Positions 3,832-56,929 of a stretch of DNA of 64,000 nt are shown here, piece after piece. This stretch comes from Rhizophagus irregularis (lineage: Eukaryota; Glomeromycota; Glomeromycetes; Glomerales; Glomeraceae). Made by a program: the position numbers and the translations under genes. Numbering within the stretch: the stretch's first letter is position 1; the number at the start of each line of letters is the position of its first letter. The notes beneath the pieces were generated by a model. The model saw only the letters and a list, made by a program, of their open reading frames with translations. It did not search any database and was not told the DNA's origin. The stretch spans positions 558,001 through 622,000 of the forward strand of contig NC_089449.1 of the NCBI RefSeq assembly GCF_026210795.1. Direction: 5' to 3'.

Positions 3832-4896
3832 TTACCGCCGGCGATTCCCGAAGCCAAATCCAGAAGGTGGAGTGCTACTGAAGCCAAACCCACCAGCAGC
3901 AGGCTGAGTAGTCTGACCGAAGCCAAACCCACCAACAGCAGGCTGAAGTTTCTTATTTCTTGGAGACTTATTAGTTTGTTGTGGCTTAATATAATTCCAA
4001 AGTAGGTTTTCATACATCTCTCTAGAAAACATTAATGAATATGGTCTAACTGCATTAGAAAAGCTCTCGCTTGAAATCTCATTAAATCTGATTAATTCAA
4101 CAAGATTTTTTACAATTTCCCACAACTCATCGAAATTCTCTTTCTTCCATTCGTTAACATTTTTTTTACTTAAATTATTAGAACATTTATGAGTTCCCCA
4201 ATTAATAACGTATTCCCATATTTTAACTTCTTTCATTTTTATATAATCTCTTTTCAATAAATTAATCAATATTTCTTCACTTAAATTAATAAAATCATCA
4301 GAGTTAAATAATGACTCAGGATTTTCACAGATTTTTTCGACGCAAAATTCTTGGAGATTTTTACATTCTAAAAATTTTCGAGCAAATAGATAAATTTTAA
4401 TTAAATCACTTTTAATCCAAGAATCAGCAATAGATAACAAATGAGATTCTGTAAAATTCATTAATTCAGGTAACATAAATTCATCGGTAGAAGACAATAA
4501 ATCTAATAATTCTGACGTAGTAAGTTCGTTAAGTGACACCGTACCACAATACAAGTGTCTAAAGTTGAAAAAAAAATTGAATTTTTTTTTTTAACGATTT
4601 TTATTACTTTTTTTTTATAAATAATTTACGTACTTGAGAATGATATCAAAATTTATTGGTGAAACATTTGGTTTATCAAAAATAATTTTATCTCCATCTT
4701 TTTTAATCCAATCACTTGATAGGGCAGTTTGAAAATATTCTGATTGTGAACTTAATATTAATGAATGTGCGTAAAATGTTTTACAATTTGATTCGTTTCC
4801 AACATTTATTATCATATCATGATTGTTATCCGAATTTAGAAGTAAATTTTCAAAATTTTTGCTTAATCTAGCTAATAACAAAATTTCTGATGACAT
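3832..4896 (-). CDS. BTB/POZ-BACK domain protein with FG-rich tail
   Basis: Exons 4896..4634 and 4558..3832 are joined by a 75-bp GTACGT..TAG intron (phase 2) to give 329 residues. The BTB domain fills roughly residues 1-105 (NCKTFYAHSLILSSQSEYF, SDWIKKDGDKIIFDKPNVSP). The BACK-type helices follow at about 110-280 (ENPESLFNSDDFINLSEE, NLLKRDYIKMKEVKIWEYV). The last ~35 residues differ from the paralog at 1-1004. They are Gly-Phe rich (GGFGFGQTTQPAAGGFGF, then SGFGFGNRRR), built from a duplicated ~50-bp DNA block at about 3885-3950 and ending in a basic NRRR. Kelch, MATH or TLDc partner domains are absent. An adaptor role for Cullin-3 is inferred from the family; the FG tail is reminiscent of nucleoporin FG repeats, but a link to the pore is not supported. 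Confidence 0.85.
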
Positions 4897-7800
4897 AAAT
4901 TTTATTTCAGGTCAAAGAAAAAAAAAGATGCTTTATAAAAACAAAAGTGCAATGAAAATTTGTGAAATTTTTTTTTATTCTCCGAACGTGTAAATTGAGC
5001 CCGATTTAACTATATTTAGGATATTTACGCCTTACGTTACAAAATACAGTTAGCGAATGTCAAATATATCATTCCTAATAAAAAAAAAAATAAAAATAGA
5101 TTAGATTTAATTGATGTATTGATATTGATGTATTGATGTATTGATGTATTGATGTTACAATCATTACTAATATTATAAGTCTATAAATCTTAATTAGTAA
5201 AATTTGAGTTATTTAACCCACGTGAATTTTGTCACTGACCTCGCTCACGCTATATGCTATATGGTTAATGCTGGCTAGTAAGTAATGATGTTGGTAGAGA
5301 ATTCATAATGCCGGCCAGACAGATTTAACCGGGCGATACTGGAGTCTTACATTGCTTTTATTTCCCGCGTATTTCGTTGAAAATATTAGGCGCCATTTTT
5401 CTTAGTAGCGCCAGTGTAGCGCCCATCATTATTTTTAGTTTAATATATAAAGCGCATATAAAATAGTAGGTTGCGCATATGAATTTTATTAATGATATCA
5501 GATATATGCTTTGCGCGTATAAGAATTTTTTGAATTTATAACACTGGTCTTATGTTTTTAGAATTTCAATAATTTCATCGAGATATTGTATGGGAACAAT
5601 AAAAGAAAAGCATCATTTTATTTATATTATTAAACTGATAGTGATTAAGATGTATGTTATGACGAATTTTTTGAAGAAAAATGCATCTGTACAAAATAAT
5701 TTAACAGATTGGTAAAAGAAACAATAAAGTATATGAATGAACAAATACAAATTGAAGAAAAGCATTTGAACGGCATTTAATATTAGCTGAAAATAAGCTA
5801 AGAATACAGATTTTTACCAAGGCAAGTTACATATAAATCAATGCATTTGAATTATGAAATGAAGATGCGGCGGCACAAAGTAGTTTGGAAAATTATTATA
5901 AAAATATGATAATAAATGCGCTTTTTTTTTTTAACCAGTAACTATTAAAATAATGGTAAAGGAAGTTAAATAAAACAAGGAACACAAATGGAACCAAGAA
6001 CTTGCGCGTGTACCTAAAACGAGCGACTTGGCTTCTTCGGTACTAACCTATTGTTTCTTGATATTTTATTCCTTCCTTTTCATATATACTTTTCACTTAC
6101 AAATGTAACTACTTCTTTACCTCACGTATATTATTCTTTTAATGGTTAATTTACCAGAATTTATTAATAAGTTCATGAGTCTCACCATCGATCTCAATCT
6201 TTAACTGAAATCCTTCCGTTTTATCAAAAAATAATTTAGGAAGATACTTAACATTGATTCTTAGCGTATTTTAAAAATGCAAAAAAAATTATATAAGTTT
6301 ATTGAAAAAAAAGTAATTAATTAATTATTTATTTCCTACGTATATAAATTAACTAATTATTAAAAAAAAATCCCTCGAAATACCGAATCTTCTCCCCGCA
6401 TAATCTTTAATTTGATGCTACGAGCGAGAATCTACCTGTAAAAAATTTATTTTTCCAGATTAAAATTTTAAAATATTCATTCGATAATGATATATTTATT
6501 ATATACAGTCAACTCGCTCCCTTATCCGTAATTTCTGTAAAAACTTCGTGAAATATGACGAAATAATTTTTTTATAGGGCACTTTTTAATGTACAGTATT
6601 AAAGAAAAAAAGAATAATTTTTTATCTGATACGTTTACGGAAAAATAATTAAAAATTTAAGTAACTTGGAAATTTTCCATGTTTTGAGGCTATAAATTCC
6701 GTGAATGTGATACCGATACATTTGCGGAAATAACATGGAATAAAATATACACGAAATAAATTTTTTGACGCTTTATGACGAATTAAAGAAAAAAAGAATA
6801 ATTTTTTATTTAATATTCAAATTATTATAACAAAATTAAGGGATATAACAAACGATAAATTGAACAGACCACAAATAATAATAATAATTTTATTAACTTG
6901 ATGACGTCTTGTAAAAAAAAAGATTTTTCTGTAAATTAAATTTACAGTAGTAAAAACGCGTAAATAGTAATTGACGTAATAAAATTAATCTTTTACTATA
7001 CAGTACGTCACAACACAGACAAAACCAAAACACACGTTGAATATTATTTGACACAAAAAGAAAAATTGAAATATTTATTATATGAAAAATTATTTTAATA
7101 CATACTTTTAAACCCAATTTATTATAATAAGACTTTAAATTAAGGTAATGTAATACATAGATAATTTAGATAATTTAAGGTTTCATATGTGAAAAAACGT
7201 CATTTTTTTAATCGCGAAATCGGATCATTATATCGGGTCACAGGCGGAACACCCGAATGGGAGAAAAAAAGGAAAGAAAGTCAAATAATGATGGAAATTT
7301 TCTTGGCAAATATTTATGGCGTCTTATGACTTGTTTTTGTACATTCTGAATTACATGCATTATTTTTGAAACTTTTTTTAGTATTTCGGTAAATACAACT
7401 GTAAAAATTATCATTATATTAAATTTAATTAATATTAACATTCGGAAAATTAGACTATTACATAATCATTTCTATAACATTAAGTGTGATACAACATTAA
7501 TCGGGTAATCCGCGAACCCCAAATGCATTATTATTAGTAAGTATTTAATATTTTACAATAGCATATATATATTATTTAAGAAAAATAAATATTTTATGGA
7601 TTCCAAATCAAGAATTCATAACCTTCGAGATTACTAAAGTAATAAACGGGAGTAACAATAACAAAAGCGCAAATTATGGATTAAAAATTATTAAAATTAT
7701 TAATCGTTACATTTTAATACGGAATATTTGTAAAAAAAAGGAGTAAATAAAAAGGGTCCTATTCAACTAGAAAAAAAAATATATATTATGTAAAATCCGT

Positions 7801-30135: not shown

Positions 30136-30711
30136 AAATTTTTAAATAAAATAAATAAAATGCTTTTATTACTATATAGTAATGTTTTTATACATTATTT
30201 CATTGGGAATATTATTAATCAAATAAAAAATTTGGCAATTTTTAATAAATACTAACATATCATAAACAACAGGAAGTTTTTTTTTACCTCCTCCCATAGT
30301 AGTTTCTCTAAAAAACAATTTAACTTAATAAGTAATAAATGAATAATAAAATTAGTGAGAATGAATAATATTCATATAAAATTAATAAAATCAAATACCT
30401 GATTATGATTTTTTTTTTCAATACTACTTGTTGAAAATAATCTAAGTGAAAGTCCCTTTTCTTTTAATTGACGCATACAATAAGGAATATATTGTAAGTA
30501 TGTGCATGTAAGGTGTAACATCTTCTTTTCTATAAAGTCCTGGAATTAATGTTGCAGAATTCATTTGGCCTATAGTAGGCTGGCAGAAAGTTCTTACCCA
30601 ATTTTTAACATCATCTTCAAATTTTGAAATTTCTTCTTCAGTGTAAAATGGTTTTTTTAAAACTTTATACAATTGATAAAATTTACGCCATAAAATTTCA
30701 ATATCCACTCC

Positions 30712-33700
30712 ATCATCGGGAAATTTTTTGGGGAGCAGATCTGCGCAGATTTTCAGAAATTATATCTGCGCAGATCTTATACCCTGGCACAAAACATTAA
30801 AGGAAAAATCCAATAAAAAACTGCGCAGATTTTAAAAATAACAAAGTTCTGCGCAGATTTTTAAATAAAAAACCTTCGAAATACCTCAGCAATTTTTTTC
30901 GGTAAAAATCTGCATCACAATAATACAAATTAATTTATTGCATTAATTACTAATTTATTTATATAATCAAAATTACTTTTTTATTATTATTATATATTAA
31001 CAAGTTTACAAATACAATTGAAATCTATTACTAGTCATTGCTATTTATCATCTCTTTACTGCACATTTACATGTTGTTAATGGTTTGGACATTGTTCCAG
31101 TTGGTTCGATTCCAACAAACAACAAAATAAAATAGAAAATCAGAGATGTTTGTTAGAAATAAGAAAATCATTTCAAAGTTATTACTTTCGAAATGTTTGA
31201 CACGAAATCTCAGGATCTAAAAAATAAAGTAAAATGAACGTTAGTAGAATGTTCGTTAAAGAAGAATAAAAAAAAAAATTATAAAGAATTTTGAAGATAT
31301 ACCTTCAAATTCTTTCGTCCAGGAGCCAGAGAAAAAAACCCTACAGAAAAAAACAACTGAAACGTTAGTAAACATTTCGCAAATTAAAAAACATGAAAGA
31401 ATTTCGAAGGAATTTTACCTTCGAAATTCCATCCAGAAGCCGTAAACCTGCAAAAAGTAAAAAGAAAAGACAAACGAAACGTTAGTAAATGTTTCGTTAA
31501 ACATTAAAAAAAAATTAATTTTAAAGGTAAATACCTTCGAAATCCTGAAAAAATCTCCAAGTCTGGTTCGTCTAAAGAAGCCCAGCGTCCCTATATAAAG
31601 AAGAAAGAACGTTAGAAACGTTCTTTGAAAAAAAAAATAAATTTTAAAGTTTCGCAACGAGAGTTGCGAAACTTACCATTTACTCGTTTCGGGAACCTTG
31701 GAGTACCGAAACCTACAACAAAAAAGAAAAATGAAACGTTAGCTAACGTTTCGTTTAAATAAAAACAAAAAAAACAGAATTTTGAAGGTTACCTTAAAAA
31801 TTCTGTTCAGGAGCGTTCAGAAAACCGTGTTCCTACAAAATACAAAAATGAACGTTAGAAAACGCTTCGTTAAGTATAATTATTAAAAAAAAATTTTTTC
31901 GAAGGTTTCACCTTCGATATGGGAGACCGAACTCATTTTCAGCTTCCTTTACCTAAAAAAAATAAAATACGAACGTTAGTTAACGTTTGTTTAAATAAAA
32001 AATAAAATAAAATTTCGAAGGTTTTACCTTCGATATGGGAGCCCGGAATTCGTTTTTGGATTCCCTTGCCTAAAAAAAAAGGAAATACGAACGTTAGTTA
32101 CGTTCGTCAATAAATTAAAAAAAAAAAAATTTTTTTTTACGAAGATTTTACCTTCGTATGGGAAAACCTTCGTATGGGAGTCCAAGTTTTTGGCTTCCTT
32201 TATCTAAAAAAAAAAGGAAATACGAACGTTAGTTACGTTCGTCAATAAATAAAAAAGAAAAAAAAATTTCGAAGGTTTTACCTTCGATATGGGAGTCCGG
32301 AACTCATTTTCGGATTCCCTTGCCTAAAAAAAAAGAAACACGAACATTAGTTAACGTTCGTTAATAAAAATATTAAAAAAAATTAATTTTTTCGAAGGGT
32401 CTTACCTTCGATATGGGAATCCAGAACTTGTTTCAGATTCCTTTGCCTAAAAAAAAAGAGACGAAATATTAGAAACGTTTCATCAATAAATTAATTAAAA
32501 AAAAAATTAATTTTCGAAGGTTTGTTTTACCTTCGATATGGAAGTCCAGAACTTATTTCAGCTTCCTTTACCTGAAAAAAAAGAAACGAAATGTTATAAA
32601 CTGAACGTTTCGTTAATAAATTAATTAAAAGAAATAATTTGAAAGTTTTACCTTCAAACAGAACTTTCAAATGGGTCTGGAACATACTTTCAGCATTCTG
32701 GACCTATAAAATACAAAAATGAACGTAACTAACGTTCGTTAAAGTTAAATTATAAAAAAAAAAAATATTTCGAAGATTTTTACCTTCGAAATAAACGTCT
32801 GGAGCCATTCTTCGGCGTCCAGGACTTATAAATATAAAAACGAACGTTAATTAACGTTCGTTAAATAAAAATATAAAAAAAAATTTGAAGGTAAAACCTT
32901 TACATTCGAAATAAGAATTCGGAGTCGTTCTTCGGCGCCCAGGACCTAAAAACATGAAAAATGAACGTTAATTAACGTTCGTTAAAATAAAATTAAAAGA
33001 AATATTTTGAAGGTAAACTTTACCTTTGAAATAAACGTCCGGAGCTGTTCTTCGGCGCCCAGGACCTAAAAACATGAAAAACAAACGTTAATTAACGTTC
33101 ATTAAAATAAAATTAAAAAAAATATTTCGAAGGTAAACTTTACCTTCGAAATAAACGTCTGGAGCCGTTCTTTGGCGCCCAGGACCTATAAAATGTAAAA
33201 ACGAACGTTAATTAACGTTCCTTAAAATAAAATTAAAAAAATATTTCGAAGGAAAACTTTACCTTCGAAATAAACGTCCAGGGCCATTCTTTGGTGTCCA
33301 GGACCTATAAAACGTAAAAACGAACGTTAGCGACGTTCGTTAAACAAAAATATAAAAAAAAATTTTGAAGGTAAAGGTTTTACCTTTGAAATAAGAGTCT
33401 GGAGCCGTTCTTTGGCGTCTAGGATAAGAAAATAATAAACCGAACGTTGGACAACGTCCGGTATATAAAAAATATTAGTTTCGAAGTTTTACCTTCGAAA
33501 TAGAGTCCAGAACTGGTACTTTCAGCGCTCTGGACTTACAAAAAAAAAAAATAAAACGAACTTTAGCTAATGTTTCGTTAAATTTTTTTTTTTTTTGAAA
33601 TGGAGTCCAGGACGTACCTTTTGTGTTCTGGATTAATAAAACGAACATTTTCTAACGTTCGTTAAATAATACTAATATCAAAGTTTGAAATAGAGTACCT

Positions 33701-34398
33701 TCGGCGTTCTGTAAAATGTATTTTTGAAGGAGATAAAGGAGTCCGACATCTTTTTAGTCCGAATCTCCTGCATGTTGCAGATTATATGCCGAATGTTGGA
33801 CGAATTTGCCTTAAAGACTCTGAACCTTGCAAATAAATTTTTTTTAAAAAAAAAAAAATTTCTCTGATAAGTTTCAAAGCTTAAAAAACTATAATAGAAA
33901 TATTTTTTCTTTGGAATCTTTAACAGATTATTTCCTAAAAGGTGTTGTAGAAAAAATTATTTCACTTCTTTAGTAATAAGTGTTGTAGAAAAAATTATTT
34001 TTTTAAAGTCTTGTAAAGTTTTTTTTTTTAAAGAGTATTGTAAAAAAAATTAAATCAAGTTAGAGTTAATCAAAGTTTAAATATTAAATCAATGATGAAA
34101 TTGCAGATCGAACTGATATTTTAATGAAAAAAAAGCAAAAATCTGCAAAATTGCAGACTTCTGCATAAATTTCACATAAAAAAAAGCAGAAATCTGCAAA
34201 ATCGCAGATTACTGCAGAAATTCATACATAAAAAATCGGAAACTTGCAAAATTGCAGATTATTGCATAACTTTGTAAAAAATAAAAAGCAGAAATCTGCA
34301 AAATCGCAGACTTCCGCATAAATTCACAAAAAAAATGCGGAGATCTGCTAATTTTACAGATCTCTGCAGTTCTGCATCTTAAAAAATTTCCCGATGAT
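30712..34398. mobile_element. 3.7-kb element with inverted termini, sub-terminal TCTGC motifs and a central unit array
   Basis: The left terminus atcatcgggaaatttttt (30712-30729) is repeated inverted at 34381-34398. It interrupts the transposase-like gene 30442-36631 precisely between SEIYH and DIEILW codons. Just inside each end are clusters of a gcagat/atctgc motif: gatctgcgcagat forms on the left (30735-30860) and gcagaaatctgcaaaattgc forms on the right (34110-34375). These resemble sub-terminal transposase-binding repeats. No open frame for a transposase is present, so it is probably nonautonomous. The middle is the array at 31190-33720. No clear target duplication was found. Confidence 0.75.
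31190..33720 (-). repeat. Array of ~21 micro-exon/mini-intron-like units
   Basis: Units of ~110-120 bp repeat about 21 times. Read on the minus strand, each has a TAG acceptor, a short block of usually 36-42 nt, a CGAAG|GTAAA donor, an A/T stretch, and a palindrome aacgttaactaacgtt that contains the branch-point word CTAAC (TTAAC in some units), followed by a U-rich tract to the next TAG. Example: block 33185-33144 (42 nt) begins gtcctgggcgccaaagaacg and translates VLGAKERLQTFISK. At least six blocks are exactly 42 nt and open in the same frame. Three nested palindromes occur per unit: cgaaggtaaa..tttaccttcg at the donor, one inside the block (gtctgg..caggac), and the branch-site palindrome. 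Outer units on both sides are degenerate. Confidence 0.8.
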
Positions 34399-36073
34399 AT
34401 ATTTCAGATATAAATTCACTTACAGGAAAATGTTGTAGCATTTTTTTTTTATCAGGTCCCATAAGTGATGTATAGTTCCAATTACCTCAAGCAGAACCAT
34501 CATGATAAAACTCAAAATGAATATTAAAATCATTTATTTTTTTTCAATTTTCTCTTTAAAATTTCGCTCAAAATCATTTTTCTTAAATAAATCTCTAAAT
34601 AAACATTCCATCAATACATCAGATATCCGTAATAAGATATGGAGTTCATCAGGAATGTAACTATGTAAATCAACTACAGGAAATAAAGATACCCTTTTTT
34701 TCCTAGTTAATGTAAATTAATAATTACTCATATGTTATTGTTTTACAAAAAATTCAAAACATTTTAAATTATTTTACCTCTAATATTTCCAGTAAGTGGC
34801 CAAGAAAGATCCATATTATGGCAAGATTTAGCATCACATTCACAGAATAGGCAAAAATACTTTGAATTTGGTACATTTAAGCCCATAATAATATATGTAA
34901 ACTTTCAATCACCAGAAAAATAAAATTTAATTGGCCAATGAATGCCATCACCATCAATTATTTCACTTTCTTTTAAATCAGCTAACTGTACAGCAAATAT
35001 TTTGCTAACCTTATCCAATGTTTTATATTTTTCTTTACCTATATAAAGACATATACTGAAATAGCAATTGAATTTTATTTATTTCAGTTTTCATTAAAAT
35101 TACAAGTTAATTTATAATACATGTAAAAAATATACCTATATTGATGGTCTGGTTTAAGCACATTATTTTTTTTATTTAGTAAACAAAAGGTAATCATTAC
35201 ATGGTTTTGTTTTCTTCTCACATTATAACCATCACCAGCAAGTTTTATATAAAAAGTATCTTCTGAAATTATTACAGGATTTTTGCCTCCTTTTCAAATA
35301 GGTATTAATACTTTAAGTAAAATTGAAAGAAAATGATAAGCTCCATTTTCCACTTCATAATTATTTACTAAAATGTCACCAGTATTTACATCAGAATCAT
35401 GATCATTAATTTGATTAATATCTTGATCTATATTAAAAATTTTCACATTTATCTAAGTATTTATTAGTTCATTTATCTTATTTCAGCGATTAGCAACTAA
35501 ATATTCATAGAAAAGTGATGGTACAACTGCTGCTAAATGTCGATATCCATCATGGCTTAAAAGTGCTTCATTATACACATGTACAATAGTATCAAGTCTT
35601 GTTTGAATTACCATATGATTTGAATTTTTGAGTTTAATACAAACTTAATTCTTTTTGTAATTAAATCCAATTTGCTGTAAATGTATAATTGATTCTCCAG
35701 ATACATTTATCAACTTATGCTTAATGATCAATTCATCAACTGCTTTATGCACATCTTTTCCAAAACTTTTAAATCTTTTATTTTGCTGTGATTGAGAAGT
35801 AATTTTCTCAAGAGGTCTTTTTCGCTTATCTTTTGTACTAGCAGTAATAGATTAAAAACCAATTTGTGAACGAGCATAGTATAGTGGCTCAATATCAAAT
35901 CCAAACAACTGAGATCCAGAAAGTTTAGTTGATAGATTTTGGTTAATTTTCTAATCAATAAAATATTAAATTAATTATCTATAATTATTAAATTTTTCAA
36001 TATAAATATGAAAGATTACATACTTGCAAAAATGTATTGACAACTGCTATTGAAGATTTTGTACTACTAACAC

Positions 36074-36369
36074 AGGACCCCGGATATCTCCAAAACAGGT
36101 CATAAGTCACACTTTCGGCAGATTGGCCCATTTTTCAGGGGCTCAAAAAATCGTTTTTTGTAAATATCTTGGCATCCAGTGGTCCAATTTTGATGAACAT
36201 TTTTTTAAATTGTAGAGCTAAATGAGGGCTACAAAATAAAAAAAGTTCATTAAAATTGAATTACTGGATGCTGAGATATTTACAAAAAACGATTTTTTGA
36301 GTTTCAGCAAAAAGGGGTGTTTTTGGCCAAAAGTCCATTATGACCTTTATATTAGATATCCGGGGTCCT
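36074..36369. mobile_element. AGGACCCC-family MITE, 296 bp
   Basis: The termini aggaccccggatatct and agatatccggggtcct are perfect inverted repeats. The 8-bp target duplication actaacac lies at 36066-36073 and 36370-36377. An interior long palindrome (gtaaatatcttggcatccag ... ctggatgctgagatatttac) fills the element. An 8-bp duplication suggests hAT-type mobilisation. Confidence 0.9.
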
Positions 36370-37456
36370 ACTAACACTCCACTCTGCCCAACCAATCTTC
36401 CAATTAATTATAGTTTAGCTTTGAATTTGAAATATATTTAGTTTTGCAATTAAGACTTCTTTCAAATATCTCTGTTTCAACTATATAATTATCAGGTATT
36501 GGATATTGAATTGCATTGTTTTTAGATTTTTGTGTCAACTTTGGTGTAGAAGGATAGGTTCCCAGAGAAATAATATTGTAATATGAAATAAATAATTGTC
36601 CATTTGATTGATAATGTGCTTCAATTTTCAAACTTTTTGGATAATCATGTGTAAAAAGACACGACTAGAAAATGTAGCTATTGATAAAGGATGTTGTTAG
36701 ACTTTTCCCTATATTAAAAAAAAAAAATATTACTTTCGGTAATGGAAACGATTGTTTCTGCCATTTTTATTATTTTAAAGCAAAGAGTTTTGCTAATTGA
36801 CTATAATAAATTTTTAATATACTACTTACGGTTTTCCAAAAAAAACCAATTCCTTTCAAATAAAACCAATTACAAACCAATTACCAATAGGAATCAAAGT
36901 TGCAAAAAATAAGTTTGAAGTCACCAACAATTGGTTTGAATATGAAATCGTCATGTAAACAGTGATAATATCAGATAACGCACAATGATGCACAAGTTAT
37001 TTTGATCAGCATGTCAATCAAAATTCATATTTATCACTAAAAATTAATTAGTGATACAAGACAAATCGGCCCATATGTTAATTTTCACAATTTTTGTTAC
37101 TCAAAATTGTTTTGTAATACCAAAAAATCATCTGATTGATGATCACTTGACTAAATAATAAGTTGAACAAAAATTTACATTTGCGAAACTTAAATTATTA
37201 AATGTAAAAGAGCTGTGAAAAAACTCATTTCACTAGTAAAAAACCCATTTCTTATATATATAGAATTTTTAATATATATTATTAAAAAGTAAGTATATTT
37301 TAATAAAATATAAAGCAAAATAAAAATTTATATAGCCTTAGTAGCTATAAATATTTATAAAAGTATAATAAAAATATCATATAAAAGATGGTATCATAAT
37401 AAATATTTTCAAACAATAAAAATAATTATTTTATGTCAGAGTTTGTATTACCATCT

Positions 37457-37785
37457 TTAAATGCAAATATATCAAGATTCACTAATTCGTTTTCTATAAT
37501 TTTAGGCTCGTTGGAAAGCCCTTGTTCTGGACTTTATAGGCAAAAAAAGAGCTCGCCAATTGAATCATTAGATCTGGAGATATTTACATTTAAAGTTGAG
37601 ATATGAACTTTTTAATATGCTTAAATGCAAATATCTTGGGATCCACTGATCCATTTTTTATAAATTTAGGCTCTTTGGAAAGCCTTTGATCTGGTCTATA
37701 TGAACGAAAAAAGAGCTTGCCAATTGGATCATTGGATCTGGAGATATTTACGTTTTAAGTTGAGATACAAATTTTTAACATATAT
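37457..37785. repeat. Tandem duplication of a ~155-bp palindromic module
   Basis: Two diverged copies (about 37457-37612 and 37613-37785) begin ttaaatgcaaatatctt and end ctggagatatttac...gttgagata. Each copy is itself roughly palindromic (atcttgggatccactgatcc versus ggatcattggatctggagat) around a central ggctctttggaaagcc block. The arms are related to the interior palindromes of the AGGACCCC elements. Confidence 0.7.
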
Positions 37786-38520
37786 AGTAAGTGCTAAGAA
37801 TTATATTAATTTAAAAGAAATATTTACCAAATTATAGTATCCCTTAAACTGTTTTGCAGCCAAATTTTCCTGCAATTTTGTTTTTTAATTAAAGCCACTT
37901 TTAAATACCTTAAAATATTTTATTACATAAACCAATATTTTTATAATAAATTCTATAGTATTTTCTAAGTAAAAATCGAAAAAAAAGTTCAATTTGATTA
38001 ATGATTTTTTAAAAGTAAATGATCGACAAATTATAACAAATAGTAGCTAAATTTTTTAAATTGAAATATCTTTTTATCTATTAACTCTAGAAATATAAAA
38101 TTACCACCATTTGATGCATCTTAATGAGAAGAATCTGATGGAAATAAAATTATCCTTCCACAAATATTATGTGACAGGATAACTTATAAAATCTAAAATT
38201 TTATGAATTAATATAATTTTTTATTTATCAATTTTAGAGTTATGATTTTATTACCATTAAATGCTCCTTAATAAGAGGAATCTAACAAATATAATTTCAT
38301 CTTTCTATAATCACTAGATCTTAAGATATTGTAAAAATTCAAAAATTTTTAAAATTAATTTTAGCCCCTACAGTTTAAGGAATAATAACATTAAATAAAA
38401 ATTTTTTAATACTCATTTCCAATTTACTGTATATTATATAGTATTTTGTATAATAAAAATGTAATAAAATTAATATTTTAATTAAAGGTAGACAAATCAG
38501 CCCATATGATATGTTTAAAA

Positions 38521-38725
38521 TAGGGATTGGAATCAAAAATTGAATCTTTTCAAGATTTTTCTTATAGACAACCAACCTGACTTTGAATCAGTTTCTAATT
38601 TCAGTAAAAATAATCAGTACTTGGCCGGCATGAAAAATTACATGTAAAAAATTGCTGAGAATTGATTCTCGAGAATCGATTTTACTATGTTTTGTCGATT
38701 TTTGATTAATCGATTCCAATCCCTA
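38521..38725. mobile_element. TAGGGATT-family MITE, 205 bp
   Basis: The termini tagggattggaatc and gattccaatcccta are inverted repeats flanked by a perfect 8-bp duplication gtttaaaa (38513-38520 and 38726-38733). It sits inside the right arm of the 10.4-kb element. Closely related sequence is at 47766-47978, and shared termini are at 57911-58566. Confidence 0.9.
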
Positions 38726-40062
38726 GTTTAAAATATTATTAAAATATGCTTAAAATTCAATTTAAGTATATTTTAAGAATATAAAAAATACACTTATATT
38801 GTATTTAAATTTTAATTTAAGTATATTTTAAGAATATTTTAAATATGTAAAAAAATACACTTATATTGTACTTAAATTTTAGTTCAAGTATATTTGAAGT
38901 ATAATTTAAGTACTTAGGCAAAAACAAGTACATTAAAAGTATATCTTAAAAGTATTTCAGGCATATTTTAGGTATATTATAAGTATATCGTGAATTAAAA
39001 TTGATACTTATTTTAAGTATATTTTAATAAAATTTCAAATATATTTTAAGTATAAAGACTTTTCATAGGGTAAGCGAAGTCCTGTTTGGACCAAAAGTGA
39101 CAAAATTATGAAATTTGAAATTTTTTTTGAAATTTCCTTTTATGTAAAATTCCTTTAAATGGTATAGATCAATATAAATTCATTTCACAAAATTTCCTGT
39201 TTTGGATGTATGTGTAGCATCAATCATTACCATTTAAGGAAATTTCACATAAAAGGAAATTCATATGGGCTAAATTAACGCATCAACCAAATGTCACATG
39301 GAAAAACAATGTGACAAAATAGGAATGATCTAGAATTTAGATATGATTGGCTAATTATGAAATATCAAAATTACTGTGATTTGTGAAACAAGTCTAAGTT
39401 TTATTCTAAATACAATGAACGCTAAGAATAAAAAAAGCTCTCTTAAGAAAACTACGTGTTCTTTGTGTCAATTTACTGACAATTCGACCATCCTATATAC
39501 AAAAAATAAACTTTCTTTACATCAAAAACAATTACATCCAAATAATCATGTTGTTCCGCATATAGAGCAATCTGTACTTGACAGTATTTCAGATACTCAA
39601 GTCTGAAGTTTTTGGAGTTCTTTACTAGTTAGAATTGAAAAAAAACTCTCATACCACCATTCTAAAAGTGGGGTTAGGCAATTAATATGTGAACCATTTA
39701 ATGAAGAATTATTTGTCAAAATTTTTTCTAATAAGGAAAGCTTTACCTATATACCTTATTTAAAAAAATATAAATGCACGTTTACAGGAAAAGATTGGGG
39801 TGAAAAAAATCATAATAGTGGAACAAAAGCTTATGTGTTTATGGAAAATAAGGAGCAGAAAAAGGATGTAACTTTTATTTGGTCTGATTTTGTAGTAACA
39901 AGAATCCGTGATGGCAAAGAACCTTTAATTTTGCATAGTCCAAAATTGGTAGTTTCTTTTACAATTTCTACCGGTTATTTTATTCAAAGTTAAGAGGATG
40001 ATATAATAGCAAACATTTTTAAGGAATGCGAAGAATGTATTAAGGATGATAACTCAAATAAT

Positions 40063-40702
40063 AGGACCCCGGACATCACATATATAACTCATAACTGATC
40101 TGCATAAATTTAAGTACTTTTTGCTCCTGCTAAAATAGACCTAATTTGCTAAAAATCAAATTATCACATTTCAAATCTATACTAATTTGCTAAAACTCAA
40201 AATATGAGTTAATAATCTTTTTTTTATTATCAATAAAAAAATAAATGATTAATATAAATTAAACTGCCAATTTTTATAATTAAAATATGTAGATTATAGA
40301 TAAAATAATAATTAATAAATATAATAAATTAAATAAATAATTATTAAAAAATAAAATGTTGCGAAACTAAACGGACGGTTTTTGGCCCGCATTATTCTTA
40401 ATTTTGGCCGGAATTATACTTAATTTTGGCCAAAATATGACCCGGACCCCGAAACTAATATTTTTAAAAATATTATTTATAAAGTTAAAAACAAAGGATA
40501 AGTTAAATTTAAAAAAAAGTACCAATTTGCTCAAATATAAAATATGACTTTGTAAAATCAATACAATTTGCTAAAACTCATAATTATGACTATTAATTAA
40601 TTTTCAATCAATTTGCTCTTTCTAAAATTATGAGTTTAACCTAATTTTGATTGAATTTGCTAAAACTCAAATGTGAGTTATATATGTGATATCTGGGGTC
40701 CT
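40063..40702. mobile_element. AGGACCCC-family MITE, 640 bp
   Basis: It begins aggaccccggacatcaca and ends gtgatatctggggtcct. The perfect 8-bp duplication caaataat flanks it (40055-40062 and 40703-40710). The interior is closely similar to 27689-28670 but shorter, without the cttggcatcc palindrome. Confidence 0.92.
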
Positions 40703-41131
40703 CAAATAATGGTATGTTTTTTAATTGAAATTAATAATAAATTAATAATTTATTTTATTAAAATTAATTCACCTTTTTCCAAAAATTATAGAACTGAATT
40801 TTTATCTAGAAATTAACATTTAAATTTAAGCATATTTTTTATATACATATATATTTTTCTTTTACATTATAAAAAAAATTTATTATGTATCAGATATTAA
40901 AAATATTAAAACATCATTTATAGAAACTAAAAATAGGAATAAAATTTTCAATAACTGATAATGATTCATATTTTTCATAATAAAAGGCATATTATATTAG
41001 TTGTATTATAAAAAATTAAGGATTTGGACAGATAATTCTTTGTTTAATACATCAGGATGTATCATTCATTAAGTAATATAATTGTCTATTTTCAAAAGAC
41101 AAAATATCATGTAAAACTGAGTTATCATTAC

Positions 41132-41375
41132 TAAGGTTGCTTGCCGAAACCTAGGGGTTTAGGCAAGATGGCATTTCGCCGAAAAGCGAAATTCTGCTGA
41201 AACTATATTAAAGTTATATTAAAAAACTGGTGAAACTTTGGAGAAAGGTGAAACTGCCGAAACTTATTATAAATGCCGAAACTGCCGAAATTCTGCCGAA
41301 ACTATAATAAATCTATAGTAAAATTTTGATGAAACTAATCATAGGATTTTGAAGAGGTTTAGACAAACAACCTTA
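41132..41375. mobile_element. TAAGGTTGC-family MITE, 244 bp
   Basis: Inverted ends taaggttgcttgccgaaacc and ggtttagacaaacaacctta are flanked by the perfect 8-bp duplication atcattac (41124-41131 and 41376-41383). The interior is made of gccgaaact repeats. Confidence 0.9.
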
Positions 41376-41593
41376 ATCATTACTATTATTTCCTCCTCCC
41401 ATATAAGATCAGAAACTGTGCAGCCGAAGATTGTTGCTAACTTTTCTGCTATATACATGTTGCTTATCCTTATAGATTACTTATGGTTTACCCATTGTTT
41501 AATTACTTATTTTTTACTGAGAGAGGCAGGATGTAAACTGCCTGCTGATCTACTTGCTGACCTACCTGTTTACTCAGTTTGCTATCTCACTGC

Positions 41594-43322
41594 TAAGGTT
41601 GCTTGCCGAAACTAGGAGGTTTCGGCAAGATGGTGTATGCGAAACTGCCAAAACTAGTTTCGCAAAATTGGTCTAAAATGTTGAAATGCCGTAACTGCCG
41701 AAACCTGCCGAAACTGTCTCAGCTGCCGTAACTGTTTCGGCATAGTACATCATATGATATACATATAGTTTCGGCAACATTATGAATTATGATTAATTTT
41801 GGCATAGATTTTTTTTTTGACGCAATGCCGTATTCAGCCGTATTGAATTTATATAGACGTAATTGCCAAAATTTGCCAAATTTATCGAATTATCAATAAT
41901 TTACACCAATCCGGTACAGAAAAGTTAGATTATCAGACAGATTGCGTAGTACAAATCATCTGATGATCTCTTTTTTCTTGTATTGAGGTTTCCGGACAAA
42001 AATTATGAGGTAAAGAACTAAGGAGGATCCAGACAGGAAGTTTTTATTTAAAAAATGTAATAGTTTATTTTTCGTTTTGTAGGGTTGCCGGACGAAAAAC
42101 ATGACCGGACTTTGGAATTTAGGGGCTGAGGAAAAGTTTTTCATTGTTTTATTATTTAATAAATTTAACTTATTTATTTTTTTCTTTTTTGTAGTGTTTC
42201 CGGATGAAAAACATGACCAGACTTTGGGATTTAGGTAAAGGAGGGGGCTGAGGAAGGTTTTTCGTTGTTTTTTTATTTAATAATTTAACTTATTTATTTT
42301 TTTCTTTTTTGTAGTGTTTCCGGACGAAAAACATGACCGGACTTTGGAAATGAGGTAAGGAAGAGTTGAGGGAAAGATTTTTCGTTGTTTTTTATTTTAA
42401 TAAATTTAACTAATTTATTTTTTTCTTTTTTGTAGTGTTGCCGGACGAAAAACATGACCGGAATTTGGAATTTAGGTAAAAGAGGGGGCTGAGGAAAGGT
42501 TTTTCGTTGTTTTTTTATTTAATAAATTTAACTTATTTATTTTTTTCTTTTTTGTAGTGTTTCTGGACGAAAAACATGACCGGACTTTGGAATTTAGGTA
42601 AAAGAGGGGGCTGAGAAAGGTTTTTCATTGTTTTTTTATTTAATAAATTTCTTATTTATTTTTCTTTTTGTAGTATTGCTGGACGAAAAACATGTACGGA
42701 TTTATAAATTAAGGTAAAGGAGGACCGGTGAAAGTTTTTCGTTAATTTTTTCATAATTTATGAAAAACATGACCAGACTCTTAAAATTAAGGTGTGGGAG
42801 GGTCAGAGAAGGTGTTTTCATCATTTTTTTTTAATAAATTTAATTGATTTTTTTTTCTTTTTGTAGGATTGTCAGATGAAAAAATATGACCGGACTTTTG
42901 TAATCAAGGTAAAGTACTGGGAGAAGGGTTTCGTTATTTTTTTTTTTTTTGATAAATTTAATTAATTTATTTTTTTTTATGTAGAATTCTCAGAAAAAAA
43001 ATCACGACTGTTGCATTTGTTAGGATTTTTCAATAATAATATTATTATTAGAATATTACAACGTTGTTTATTTACATGTAAATTTATTAGACTGAAATTA
43101 AAAATAAAATATTAGGAATGCTGTAATTATGCCGAAATTCATATAAAATATTATTATTTATTATGCCGAAACTACGGATAAACTCGTTATAAAGGTTTCG
43201 CAAATTTTGGCAGTTTCGCAAGTTTTGGCAGTTTTGCAGTTTCGCAGTTTCGCAGTTACGGCACTATATGTGGAGTTTCTCCTTTCGGCATTAGGCCAAA
43301 TAGGTTTCAGCAGGCAACCTTA
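41594..43322. mobile_element. TAAGGTTGC-family element, 1.7 kb, carrying a unit array
   Basis: Ends taaggttgcttgccgaaact and ggtttcagcaggcaacctta are inverted. The perfect 8-bp duplication ctcactgc lies at 41586-41593 and 43323-43330. Sub-terminal DNA consists of short gccgaaac / gtttcgg motifs in inverted orientation at the two sides. The central part is the array at 41975-42990. There is no transposase frame. Confidence 0.9.
41975..42990 (+). repeat. Array of ~10 micro-exon/mini-intron-like units
   Basis: On the plus strand each ~118-bp unit reads tttttcttttttgtag, then a ~40-nt block (tgtttccggacgaaaaacat, then gaccggactttggaatttag), then gtaaaggaggggg or gtaaaagaggggg, then an A/T stretch with taatttaacttattt and a T-rich tract up to the next gtag. 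Units start at about 41986, 42082, 42195, 42315, 42437, 42559, 42675, 42760, 42868 and 42983. One unit (42082) has lost its donor (gggctgag). The sequence is unrelated to the 31-34 kb array although the architecture is the same. Confidence 0.8.
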
Positions 43323-44964
43323 CTCACTGCTTCTAATAGGAAAATGAACGGAATCCTGAAAGTGTTTCAGATTGTTTTAGAGTTTTGAATCTGGGGGGTA
43401 AAAATAAAAATATTTTTTGGGGGGTATGTCCTGCCTGCTTTTACTAAAATTGCTAAAACATCTGAAACATTAAAACACCCCCTCTAATTCTTTCTTATTT
43501 TCCTTTCTTTTTCCTTATTTTATCGTTTTTTAGTATATTATTATGTTTCAGATCTAGTTTTAGATTGTTTCAGATATAGGGGTATGCCTCCCCCCACAAG
43601 GGGGGAAGGAGGTATTGCGAGGCCCTGTGGCTGAGATGGGTGGAGCTTACGACACACACTACCAGCCCGATAACTCAACAGGTCATTTAGGTTATACTGA
43701 TGTTACAACCTGAATTGATGCTGAATTGCAATTACTAGACCTGACCTGAAAAATTCAGGTCAACCTGTAGAATATATTCATGCATGTGCACTACCAGGAA
43801 TTGGAGAGTGGAAAGAATGGTCACTTGAAAAAATAGAAAAGATTGTTAAAAAGCGAAAAATTGAAAACCCAAATCCTACTTTTACATCTCATACACAATC
43901 AATTAAACAATAGAATATACCAATTTTAATAAAAAAAGTGAATTTACCTGTTTCCATATTATTCCTAAATAAAAGTAATATATTTGCTTATTAGACAAAT
44001 AAGATCCAATACAGAGTAAATTGGTAAGTGATATTCAATTCTAGAATTTTTGTTATATTCTTTATTATAATTCTATTTGCTATTATGTATTTGTATTACC
44101 AATAATAAGCATCAAGAATATGTGAACCAAATACTTTCTGATTTGACTAACCTAGAAAACAATAAATCATTAGAAACCAAAAGGTATAAATATTATACAA
44201 TTACATTTTTATTTGTTATTTTGTTGATTGTATTATTTATTTATTTATTTTTTTGTGTAGTCAACAAATGTTTACCAGTAGATGGATTCTAAAAGAAAAT
44301 GAAAAAACTTGTTAGCGTAGACCAGTAAAAAGAATATCTCCCCAAGTAAAGTATCTTTTAGAATTAATGTTCTATACTGGAACATCAAATCCTCGTCAAA
44401 AATTAAATGCACAACAGATGCATAAAGAATTTCTAAAGCGTGTAGAACTTGGAAAAATTGAAGAAAATGACATACCTAAAATAACTACAATAACAAACTG
44501 GATTTCAACTTTTTCACACAAATGGAAAGAGGCTATGACTTTGCGTACTTTGGAAGAAAATATGGATTCTGAAAATTCATAATAAATACTTATAGCAAAT
44601 ACTTATAAAAAGAGAAATGCAAATAATATTTAATAAATGTTAAAAATTCGTAAATTGAAAAGGTGAAATTTATGTATTATTATATATACGTATACCTTAA
44701 AAATCTATAGCTGCTACAAAGAAAAAATTTTCGTCAAATCAGTTAAATGACATTTTTTTTGTCAAACCATATTTTACATTATTACGCAGCTTGTCATGTG
44801 ATCTGGTTGAGCTGTGAATTTGTTTTAGTAATACTTGCTTTATTGCGAATGATAGCAGTTATTTTTATTTAATAAATGATCGACAAATTTTTACCCCAAA
44901 ATTTAAGTGTAATTTTGTATCGATCTTTCATGGATCATGACTTAATTGGGTCAGTCAGGACTCC

Positions 44965-54550: not shown

Positions 54551-55499
54551 TTTGATTTGGACTTTATTGTAAGAAAAAATAATGAAAAAAAATTAGTTCT
54601 GGTGAAAAATTAGAAGCTCAGAGTCCATATATACCCAATGAAAAAATATTAGGATATTATTACTATTATTAGTAACATTTAGTACTTCAATTCTTGTCAT
54701 CCTAATGAATTAAAGATCATTTAAACGAGAATTGAACTATTATTACATTAAATAATAAATTATTTAAACGTTCTATTTGTGCACGATTTAAAATAGGATT
54801 CATCTGAAGTGATATAATTCGCAAGAAAATTTTTTGGCCCTTGTTCAACTGTGTCTAATCAGCCTAAATATTTTTTAAGTATTTGATATATTATTTAAAA
54901 TAATTTCACTTTATATATCAAATAATAGAATACATTTTTATTTGTTTTTAATAGTTTGTGTAATTTATTGATCTTCTCTCTTGTCATAAACTAATTCTTG
55001 GTGGCAGACTTAGAGAAGAACTACGTCTTACGATACACGATACACGATATACACGTGAATGATAGAGGTTTAGGTCAAAATTTTTTAGTGTCTAGTTGGA
55101 TATGATCGTTTGATAACAAAGACTATTAAAATGTAACATTGTATCGAACGCGTAAAATGACATTATGCGTGTCCATTTTTTCCCCGCTTTTATATAATAT
55201 AAAAACGATAATTCACGCATATATATTAAACTTTTAAAAATTGTCCAAAATTTTTTAAAATTTGTTACAGAATTTTTTCAAAATTGTGTTCTCCTTTGAC
55301 GAAGAATAAAAACAAAACCAAAAGTTAACATTCATTAAATCCTATGATGCGTTAAAACTTACACTCCACGATCTTATTTCTAAGGTTAAAATAATTATAT
55401 TATTAATGATTCCCTATCAAAAGATTTTTAAAGGATCCTTAAGGAGCCTAAATTTACCCATTAAGGAATCCTTGTTATCGTTATCCATTTTTCTACTCT
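54551..55499. other. Intergenic, no gene supported
   Basis: AT-rich DNA. A tacgatacacgatacacgat tandem piece is at about 55029-55050, and repeated 'ttaaggatcc / aaggaatcctt' strings begin near 55430. Confidence 0.4.
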
Positions 55500-55539
55500 T
55501 CTGTCTTTGCTAGACACGCGTCCTGTCCAGAAAGACTTG

Positions 55540-56400
55540 AAAAATCGCCTAAAAAATGAAACAAAATGAACAGTAGTTAATATAAAAAAAATGAGAATTT
55601 TTTTTTTACTAACCAACATATATTATACTACAAATAAAAGAAAAAGGAAAATTTAAAACAAAACTTACCCAAATTCCCGAACTCACCTTCTTCTCGGGAC
55701 CTCCACCTTTGGAAGAACTGGAGTTGGATTAGTCTAATCTCCGGATAATGAACTTGGGTTGGCACTCTCTAATATTCCTAATATTCCTAAACATTATGGT
55801 AATATCATCCAATTCCGTCTTAGAAAAATCATATAGACTTTATCGATATCATAGATCCGTCTAAAAAGAAAATAAAAAATGAAACGTTAATAAATGTCTC
55901 GTTAAAATAAATAAGAAAAAAAAATTTTTTCCCACCAAATTTTCACGCGTCCAAATACAATTTAATTTTATTGACCATCATCTTTTTCTTACTTTCGGTA
56001 AACATCAATGGCTTTCTTGATTGTGAAATCGACTCAGCCTGATGCTTCTTCGAACTGGATAAAAAAGAATAAAGGAAACGTTAATGAACATTTCCTAAAT
56101 AAATCAATAAAAAGTTTCACAACGAAAATGTCGCAAAACTTACCAAATCCCAAGTCGAATACTGGAAAACGTTTCTATTAAAAAAAACAAAAAAAAAAAT
56201 TATATTTAAGTTTCACAACGAAATGAAACGTTGTGAAACTTACTATTTCATTTCAAAGTTTTCAAGCCGAATACATTTGAACCTATAAAAAAAATGAGAA
56301 ACGTTAGATAACGTTTCTTATAGTAAATAAAATTAAGTTTCATGAATTTGGAACCTATTAAAAAAAAGTGAAACTTACCTGCCATTTTATTATATTACAA
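55540..56400 (-). repeat. Degenerate micro-exon/mini-intron-like tract
   Basis: Read on the minus strand, short blocks lie between TAG and GTAAG signals. Examples are a block starting aaacgttttccagtattcga (~56186-56156), flanked by ttaatag and gtaagttttgcg, and a block starting gttcaaatgtattcggcttg ending at gtaagtttcacaacg (~56285-56246). The intervening DNA carries palindromes gaaacgttatctaacgtttc and gaaacgttgtgaaac, the same aacgtt motif as in the 31-34 kb array. It may be the tail of a real multi-exon gene (a longer block near 56045-55985 starts ttcgaagaagcatcaggctg) or a decayed array. Confidence 0.45.
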
Positions 56401-56929
56401 GTATAAAATATATTTATAGTTTTAATAGACGATAGAAGTTGAAATATAGAAATTTCCGTTGGCATCATGGAAAGACTTTTCGTATGCATGGAATTTAAGA
56501 ATTTTCCATAGTACTATCTCTAAAGTCTGTCCAAATCACAAAAACCTAAAGAAGGGAGAGGGAAAAGCGAAAGAAGGAAAGGAAAAAGGAAGGGCGAAAG
56601 AAAAAAAATTACAAAAAAAAAAATTTTTTTTTACTATAGACTGCGGCTAGCCGGCTGCACGCCCTTGTGATACACATGATACAATTGATACATGTGATAT
56701 AACACGGAACCTACTAGTTAGGAGATTTGAATAATAAAGATCTAGATTTACTTAAAAGATTTTTTATATAGGAATCCTTAAGGAGCTATAAATTTATAGA
56801 TTCCTTAAGGATATTTTACAAGCCAATAAGGATTTTTAAAGAATCCTTAAAATTACAGATCCTTAAGGATTCCGAAGCAATTCATGGAATCCTATGTCCC
56901 ATGTCCCAAAAAATTTACTGATGTTCAAA

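Follow-up and report, generated by a model that had tools for sequence, protein, structure and literature searches.

Tandem arrays of candidate spliceosomal exon-intron modules in non-autonomous DNA transposons of Rhizophagus irregularis

The exons of schistosome-type micro-exon genes are symmetric and coding. Among DNA transposons, a short TIR with a 2-3 bp TSD and subterminal repeats is the rule for the CACTA/CMC/Plavaka type, and an 8-bp TSD for the hAT type. Introners are repeated spliceosomal introns whose copy numbers can reach hundreds or thousands, and some have the TIR and TSD of DNA transposons (PMC9860276; PMC4457414). Plavaka elements are reported to be prevalent in R. irregularis DAOM197198 (PMC11075540). 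Here we analyse a window of 64,000 nucleotides of R. irregularis DNA (contig NC_089449.1), in which a transposon (family 1) carries a tandem array, array 1, built of units with the signals of a small exon and a small intron (Table 1). From the sequence evidence we consider it fairly likely that array 1, which is carried in a non-autonomous R. irregularis DNA transposon, is a satellite made of complete spliceosomal exon-intron modules, probably spliced and mostly non-coding.

Table 1. Features of the window, in window coordinates.
Feature	Position	Strand	Description
Non-autonomous TIR transposon, family 1	30713..34396	minus (read)	TIR CATCGGGAAATTTTTT, 2-bp TSD (AT); inverted repeat, ends aligned in 21 copies
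Subterminal words, opposite end of family 1 element	30736..30870		CTGCGCAGA; from the sequence
Tandem array 1	31217..33617	minus	20 candidate mini-introns of 74-87 nt and 19 micro-exons of 29-56 nt, relaxed chain search; conservation in 324 aligned matches
Edge intron, array 1	31341..31418	minus	TACTAAC branch, CTGTAG acceptor; diverged from middle units
Example intron, array 1	32946..33023	minus	78 nt; GTAAAG donor, TTAAC branch words, TTTTTAG acceptor
Example 42-nt micro-exon, array 1	33024..33065	minus	VLGAEEQLRTFISK in one frame
Leader motif	33768..33802	minus	CGTCCAACATTCGGCATATAATCTGCAACATGCAG; common to family 3 (2 differences), whose arrays differ
Subterminal repeats, family 1	34098..34368		GCAGAAATCTGCAAAATCGCAGA, period about 50 bp; from TRF and the sequence
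Second TIR transposon, family 2	41594..43322	plus	TIR TAAGGTTGC, 8-bp TSD CTCACTGC; carries array 2
Array 2	42122..42723	plus	Units of about 121 bp with a 40-nt block; donors GTAAAG, GTAAGG or GTAAAA; branch word TTTAAC; acceptor TTTTTTGTAG
Third similar locus	55450..56700	minus	Pyrimidine tract, ATGGCAG/GTAAG (slash, splice border), small-exon chain by eye, palindromic branch AGAAACGTTATCTAACGTTTCT

Array 1 was delineated by a chain search with relaxed donor, branch and acceptor signals, run on the minus strand between 31,100 and 33,830. The 20 introns begin with GTAA (16), GTAT (2), GTAC (1) or GTGA (1) and end with TAG (16), CAG (2) or AAG (2), that is, with YAG in 18 of 20. Branch words are present in 19 of them (CTAAC in 10, TTAAC in 8, CTAAT in 1). 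GT donor, branch word, pyrimidine tract and YAG acceptor follow one another in the U2-type spliceosomal order, both in this search and in the unit-level test given below. The internal blocks measure, in order, 42, 35, 42, 42, 42, 42, 41, 52, 41, 41, 42, 52, 42, 41, 40, 36, 56, 29 and 38 nt. Exact 42-mers make up seven of the 19, in agreement with the at least six counted in a previous reading made from the letters alone (the sequence-only reading), and eight have a length that is a multiple of 3. The same reading had ascribed splice parts to every unit. This holds for nearly all of them; the edge units depart from the CGAAG/GTAAA border and from the 42-nt length and keep the intron signals. 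The middle units are close repeats, the edge units diverge strongly among themselves, and TACTAAC is found inside the final three introns.

The array had been described as transposon-borne, and it does lie inside a TIR element that has a TSD and many copies. The genome searched comprised 146.7 Mb in 32 contigs. With the best 40 candidates scored, the 5′ end of family 1 gave at least 44 matches at no fewer than 40 places, and the 3′ end at least 46 matches. Of the 21 copies with both flanks, 18 have the 2-bp TSD; 2000 shuffles gave 2.8 on average and never more than 9. Of the 35 merged stretches collected, 30 contain one or more matches to the array-1 unit. With its short TIR, its TSD within the 2-3 bp range and its subterminal repeats, family 1 fits an element of the CACTA/CMC/Plavaka type. 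Three long copies, L064 and L084 (whole) and L083 (the inner part of one), were considered as an autonomous partner and rejected. They hold further arrays and nested repeats but no long ORF: in L064 and L084 none exceeds 114 aa, and L083 has one of 166 aa, in repeat DNA. A tRNA scan of 30,600-34,500 found none, and Pfam searches with 10 of the 15 window ORFs returned one MYND finger only, unrelated to the array. In the 3′ region of the transposon, antisense to array 1, the plus strand at 31103-31113 reads GGTTCGATTCC, a word that we take to be tRNA B-box-like and that is the sole match of this kind in the window.

Behind the same ends, the long family 1 copies carry arrays of other sequence in which the donor-to-acceptor order is unchanged. 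L064 (C18) has family 1 ends and a different array, with units of the form TATATAG/GTTCCGGATGGAACCTATC...TTCGGAG/GTATGC; further on, units of yet another sequence lie on the opposite strand, and these did not pass the strict intron grammar defined below. L084 also combines family 1 ends with an L064-type array. In L083, copies of a family-2 type repeat (TAAGGTTGCTTGCCGAAAC) are nested at 4626-5156 among the arrays of the family 1 element. Family 3, represented by eight places picked from genome matches (L101-L108), is a young family whose members are 98-100% alike. It has the leader CGTCCAAC.TTCGG.ATATAATCTGCAACATGCAG in common with the window element, and its units are different; five introns of L101 were chained by the search and more are visible by eye. 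Words resembling TCACGTGA stand, by eye, beside several micro-exon chains (L085, L086, L089, L090, L096) and are possibly a common promoter word.

Intron-signal arrays are also not confined to one kind of carrier, since they occur in two transposons of unlike TIR and TSD length. Family 2, which bears array 2, has the 8-bp TSD of a hAT-type element, with CTCACTGC on both sides of the one copy examined, and gave at least 58 genome matches with the best 40 candidates scored (67-98% identity, self-match aside). A short element at about 41132-41384 carries the family-2 TIR word (AAGGTTGCTTG...) and, by eye, an apparent 8-bp duplication, TCATTACT; it is possibly a MITE of family 2. The third similar locus is gene-like, and pieces of it recur at many places in the genome, several of them close to contig starts. 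At 36144-36299, Rfam miRNA-precursor models match below threshold, and this segment is probably an inverted repeat.

The order of the signals was compared with chance at the level of the unit. In the stretches collected, TRF detected 187 arrays whose units measure 80-160 bp, or 28 once similar ones were removed, and the strict grammar consisted of AG/GTR, branch word, pyrimidine-rich tract and YAG in that order. The full grammar is present in 12 of the 28 non-redundant units, each time on one strand only, where shuffles of the same units expect 0.28; the set is not random and is biased, since most stretches were fetched by likeness to array 1 or to its branch palindrome, and the twelve are not independent cases, since several of them are related to array 1, though diverged from it. 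By eye, no relation to array 1 is apparent for the L064 type, array 2 or the L089 type, and the units of array 2 and L064 entered the set without selection on splice words. Among the 16 units that failed, several are plainly other repeats and some look intron-like by eye, without AG before GT. A stricter chain search scored 57.2 on the sense strand of the window copy, 2.2 on the other strand and at most 5.5 in 10 shuffles; in three other copies low-scoring antisense chains appeared too (8-10 introns, scores 5.5-7.5). As shuffling of a whole stretch breaks its tandem repetition, the unit-level test is the fairer one and was taken as the main test.

Genome-wide, the branch palindrome AACGTTNNYTAACGTT has 734+763 matches on the two strands and the reversed pattern 13+8; matches that are self-complementary count on both strands. 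With the sense set by CTAAC, an acceptor lies downstream of 81 of the 101 non-self-palindromic branch cores of the collected stretches, related copies included, and on the opposite side of 2. Both this asymmetry and the unit-level result speak for the view, already taken in the sequence-only reading, that an ordinary satellite is unlikely to keep splice signals. Conservation within the unit, measured in 324 aligned matches, provides mixed support for possible selection on splicing. The donor G is conserved at 97.4%, the first of 9 non-CpG G positions; the donor T, at 99.7%, is near the top among T positions; and one branch A, at 99.1%, ranks second among the 32 A positions. No special conservation marks the A of the second TAAC word (86.7%), the acceptor G (87.0%, seventh of 9 non-CpG G positions) or the acceptor A (96.4%, 13th of 32 A positions).

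The palindromes reported from the letters alone are real: they are seen in the sequence, and the RNA folding z values of six array-1 stretches are all negative (-4.4, -1.0, -2.7, -1.1, -3.5 and -7.4). The L064 stretches gave -4.4 and -5.0, and four others -0.5 to +0.35. In array 2, two folded stretches contain no stable hairpins (+1.5 and +2.1). Array 2 thus has splice words without hairpins, and hairpins are common in these arrays but not universal. In 49 intron types, which include related copies, stems formed with the partner from the same type exceed in length those formed with another type's partner, both at the donor (5.27 vs 4.63; a value as large in 1 of 2000 permutations) and at the branch (5.51 vs 4.45; 0 of 2000). 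The outer arms of the palindrome at the branch also show covariation, among 79 distinct flank pairs that again include related copies (1.91 vs 0.88; 0 of 5000 shuffles as large). These stems may have a function in RNA, and template-switch correction could yield the covariation without one. An ordinary hairpin satellite, in which such correction keeps the palindromes and GTAAA, CTAAC and TAG are by-products, would account for the strong palindromes of most folded array-1 and L064 stretches; quasi-palindrome correction, a known mutational process, would also give the observed stem fit and arm covariation. We nevertheless regard such a satellite as unlikely, because array 2 keeps the grammar without hairpins, the acceptor is strand-asymmetric though the palindromes are nearly symmetric, and unrelated unit sequences repeat the same signal order.

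If array 1 were instead a real micro-exon protein gene, its 42-nt exons would encode the 14-residue repeat proposed in the sequence-only reading, and alternative splicing would keep the frame. Ten successive 42-nt exons are indeed open in one frame in copy C8_2158558, and public proteins of 95-309 aa match the arrays, with further matches named for R. irregularis A1, A4, A5 and B3 and for R. diaphanus. The lengths and substitutions of the exons count against this. Among 149 exons near the 42-nt consensus, 120 have 42 nt; the other 29, at 35, 40, 41, 43 or 44 nt, all have lengths not divisible by 3. Among 207 distinct exons, a count in which homologous exons from related copies are pooled, 132 differ from 42 nt in length and 23 of these are multiples of 3. 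For the substitutions, exons with YAG and GTA[AT] borders were kept (120 exons, 113 distinct) and compared with a hand-chosen 42-nt ancestor. They differ from it by 609 substitutions, 368 of them transitions at CpG; as the exon copies are related, counts are given without a probability. Synonymous changes observed and expected in the three frames are 187 vs 222.6, 195 vs 189.3 and 189 vs 169.2, with no clear excess in any frame and a value below expectation in frame 0. The sole coding hint is that frame 0 of the 42-mer has 1 new stop where 6.6 are expected. The amplified exons are therefore neither symmetric nor frame-keeping as a set, and are without coding constraint. In array 2, three joined 40-nt exons have stops in all three frames, with up to 32 codons open in one.

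Six of seven public proteins (P0002 was left out) were mapped with our own script, which accepts any GT-AG introns of 35-500 nt. The residues placed were 221 of 232 for P0001, 211 of 211 for P0003, 133 of 144 for P0004, 181 of 181 for P0005 and 227 of 309 for P0007, with 18, 16, 9, 12 and 18 introns, of which 8, 8, 2, 3 and 4 respectively are identical to those of the chain search; only 47 of the 247 residues of P0006 were mapped. The exons use unit borders, as placed by the script and not by published exon coordinates. As mapped, the models skip at least one unit and use odd donors to stay open. They may be ab initio models; according to PMC10234402, short- and long-read RNA was used in predicting R. 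irregularis models, whose boundaries have full or partial support. Public R. irregularis proteins matching such arrays are probably not real proteins, and for annotation these models should be held suspect. Exon lengths, substitutions and a mapping that needs skipped units or odd donors led us to reject the protein repeat, and a micro-exon protein gene at this locus appears quite improbable. SP7-like effectors, tandem-repeat proteins of AM fungi with the motif Y[KR]Rx[AP]x[AP] and one conserved intron ahead of the first repeat according to passages of PMC11333574, were rejected as candidates, the motif being found in 0 of 30 returned proteins.

Single units might also exit the array and settle as introns in ordinary genes. 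Introner-like elements are known from fungi (PMC4457414), some branch palindromes are isolated (among the matches listed, on contig C1 only) and some places, L085 and L086 among them, have one or two units. By eye, however, L085 and L086 look like copies of one repeated sequence, and arrays or chains make up most of the other sampled places. No clear case of a single unit as the intron of an ordinary coding gene was seen in 12 places, all on contig C1, read by eye. Two branch palindromes of the window lie outside arrays; one of them (56,307) is intron-like and belongs to the chain of the third similar locus. A role of array 1 as a source of introners seems very unlikely. R. irregularis has a large Argonaute family. 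That the array feeds small RNAs from its hairpins to the fungal silencing machinery is barely credible. The stability of the hairpins and the 2′-O-methylated small RNAs of R. irregularis (PMC8647823) speak for it; against it are the lack of any Rfam match above the gathering score in 30,500-43,500, an array 2 without hairpins and splice words that would be left unexplained.

If array 1 is a spliced satellite of exon-intron modules, RNA read along the minus strand from the 33.8-kb leader would undergo splicing in almost all units. Splicing would remove about two thirds of the array and join about 20 micro-exons into a product that is most likely non-coding. Arrays would lengthen and shorten in their middle by unequal exchange while the edge units diverge. 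Since every unit brings a donor, a branch site, a T tract and an acceptor of its own, lengthening of the array would add little mature RNA and could be tolerated in transcribed transposons. An array that is tolerated and mostly spliced out would explain a turnover of units in which the splice signals persist after the rest of the unit has been replaced. Some features count against splicing: donor and branch lie inside stems that could hinder it, two acceptors of array 1 are AAG, and one intron has no branch word. In a broader proposal, which we advance only tentatively, intron satellites would be selfish tandem repeats that spread in different DNA-transposon superfamilies as functional intron and micro-exon units and are largely removed from RNA; the unit sequence would turn over fully, with the grammar kept and, in most of them, unit-specific donor and branch hairpins as well. 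If they are spliced, the arrays would represent tandem repeats of whole exon-intron modules moved by transposons, and would offer a testable setting for the origin of introns and micro-exon genes. Should the broader proposal be true, the arrays could supply AM fungi with new introns and alternatively spliced RNAs in an open-ended way.

No description of tandem exon-intron arrays in TIR elements was found among the top titles of searches in the open-licence literature, and the main texts of PMC11075540 and PMC8647823 contain no word beginning with "intron". The carriers resemble non-autonomous CACTA/CMC/Plavaka and hAT transposons in their TIRs and their 2-bp or 8-bp TSD and, for family 1, in the subterminal repeats. 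Schistosome-type micro-exon genes likewise have many tiny exons in a row, but the lengths of the array micro-exons, unlike theirs, ignore the frame. A bacterial minisatellite-bearing MITE, described in part of PMC4596501, also holds a tandem array within a TIR element; as it is bacterial, no spliceosomal introns are at issue. The symmetrical stwintrons and sister introns of Hypoxylaceae are proliferating fungal introns with inverted repeats as well. There, 45-55-nt terminal inverted repeats lie in a genic intron (PMC8469720), whereas the hairpins here are short, lie at donor and branch within arrays and were not seen in array 2. Like introners, of which some carry a TIR and TSD (PMC9860276; PMC4457414, each in part), the arrays contain repeated candidate introns of spliceosomal type. 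Introners, however, are single introns in unrelated genes, whereas here candidate introns and exons stand together in tandem within a larger transposon.
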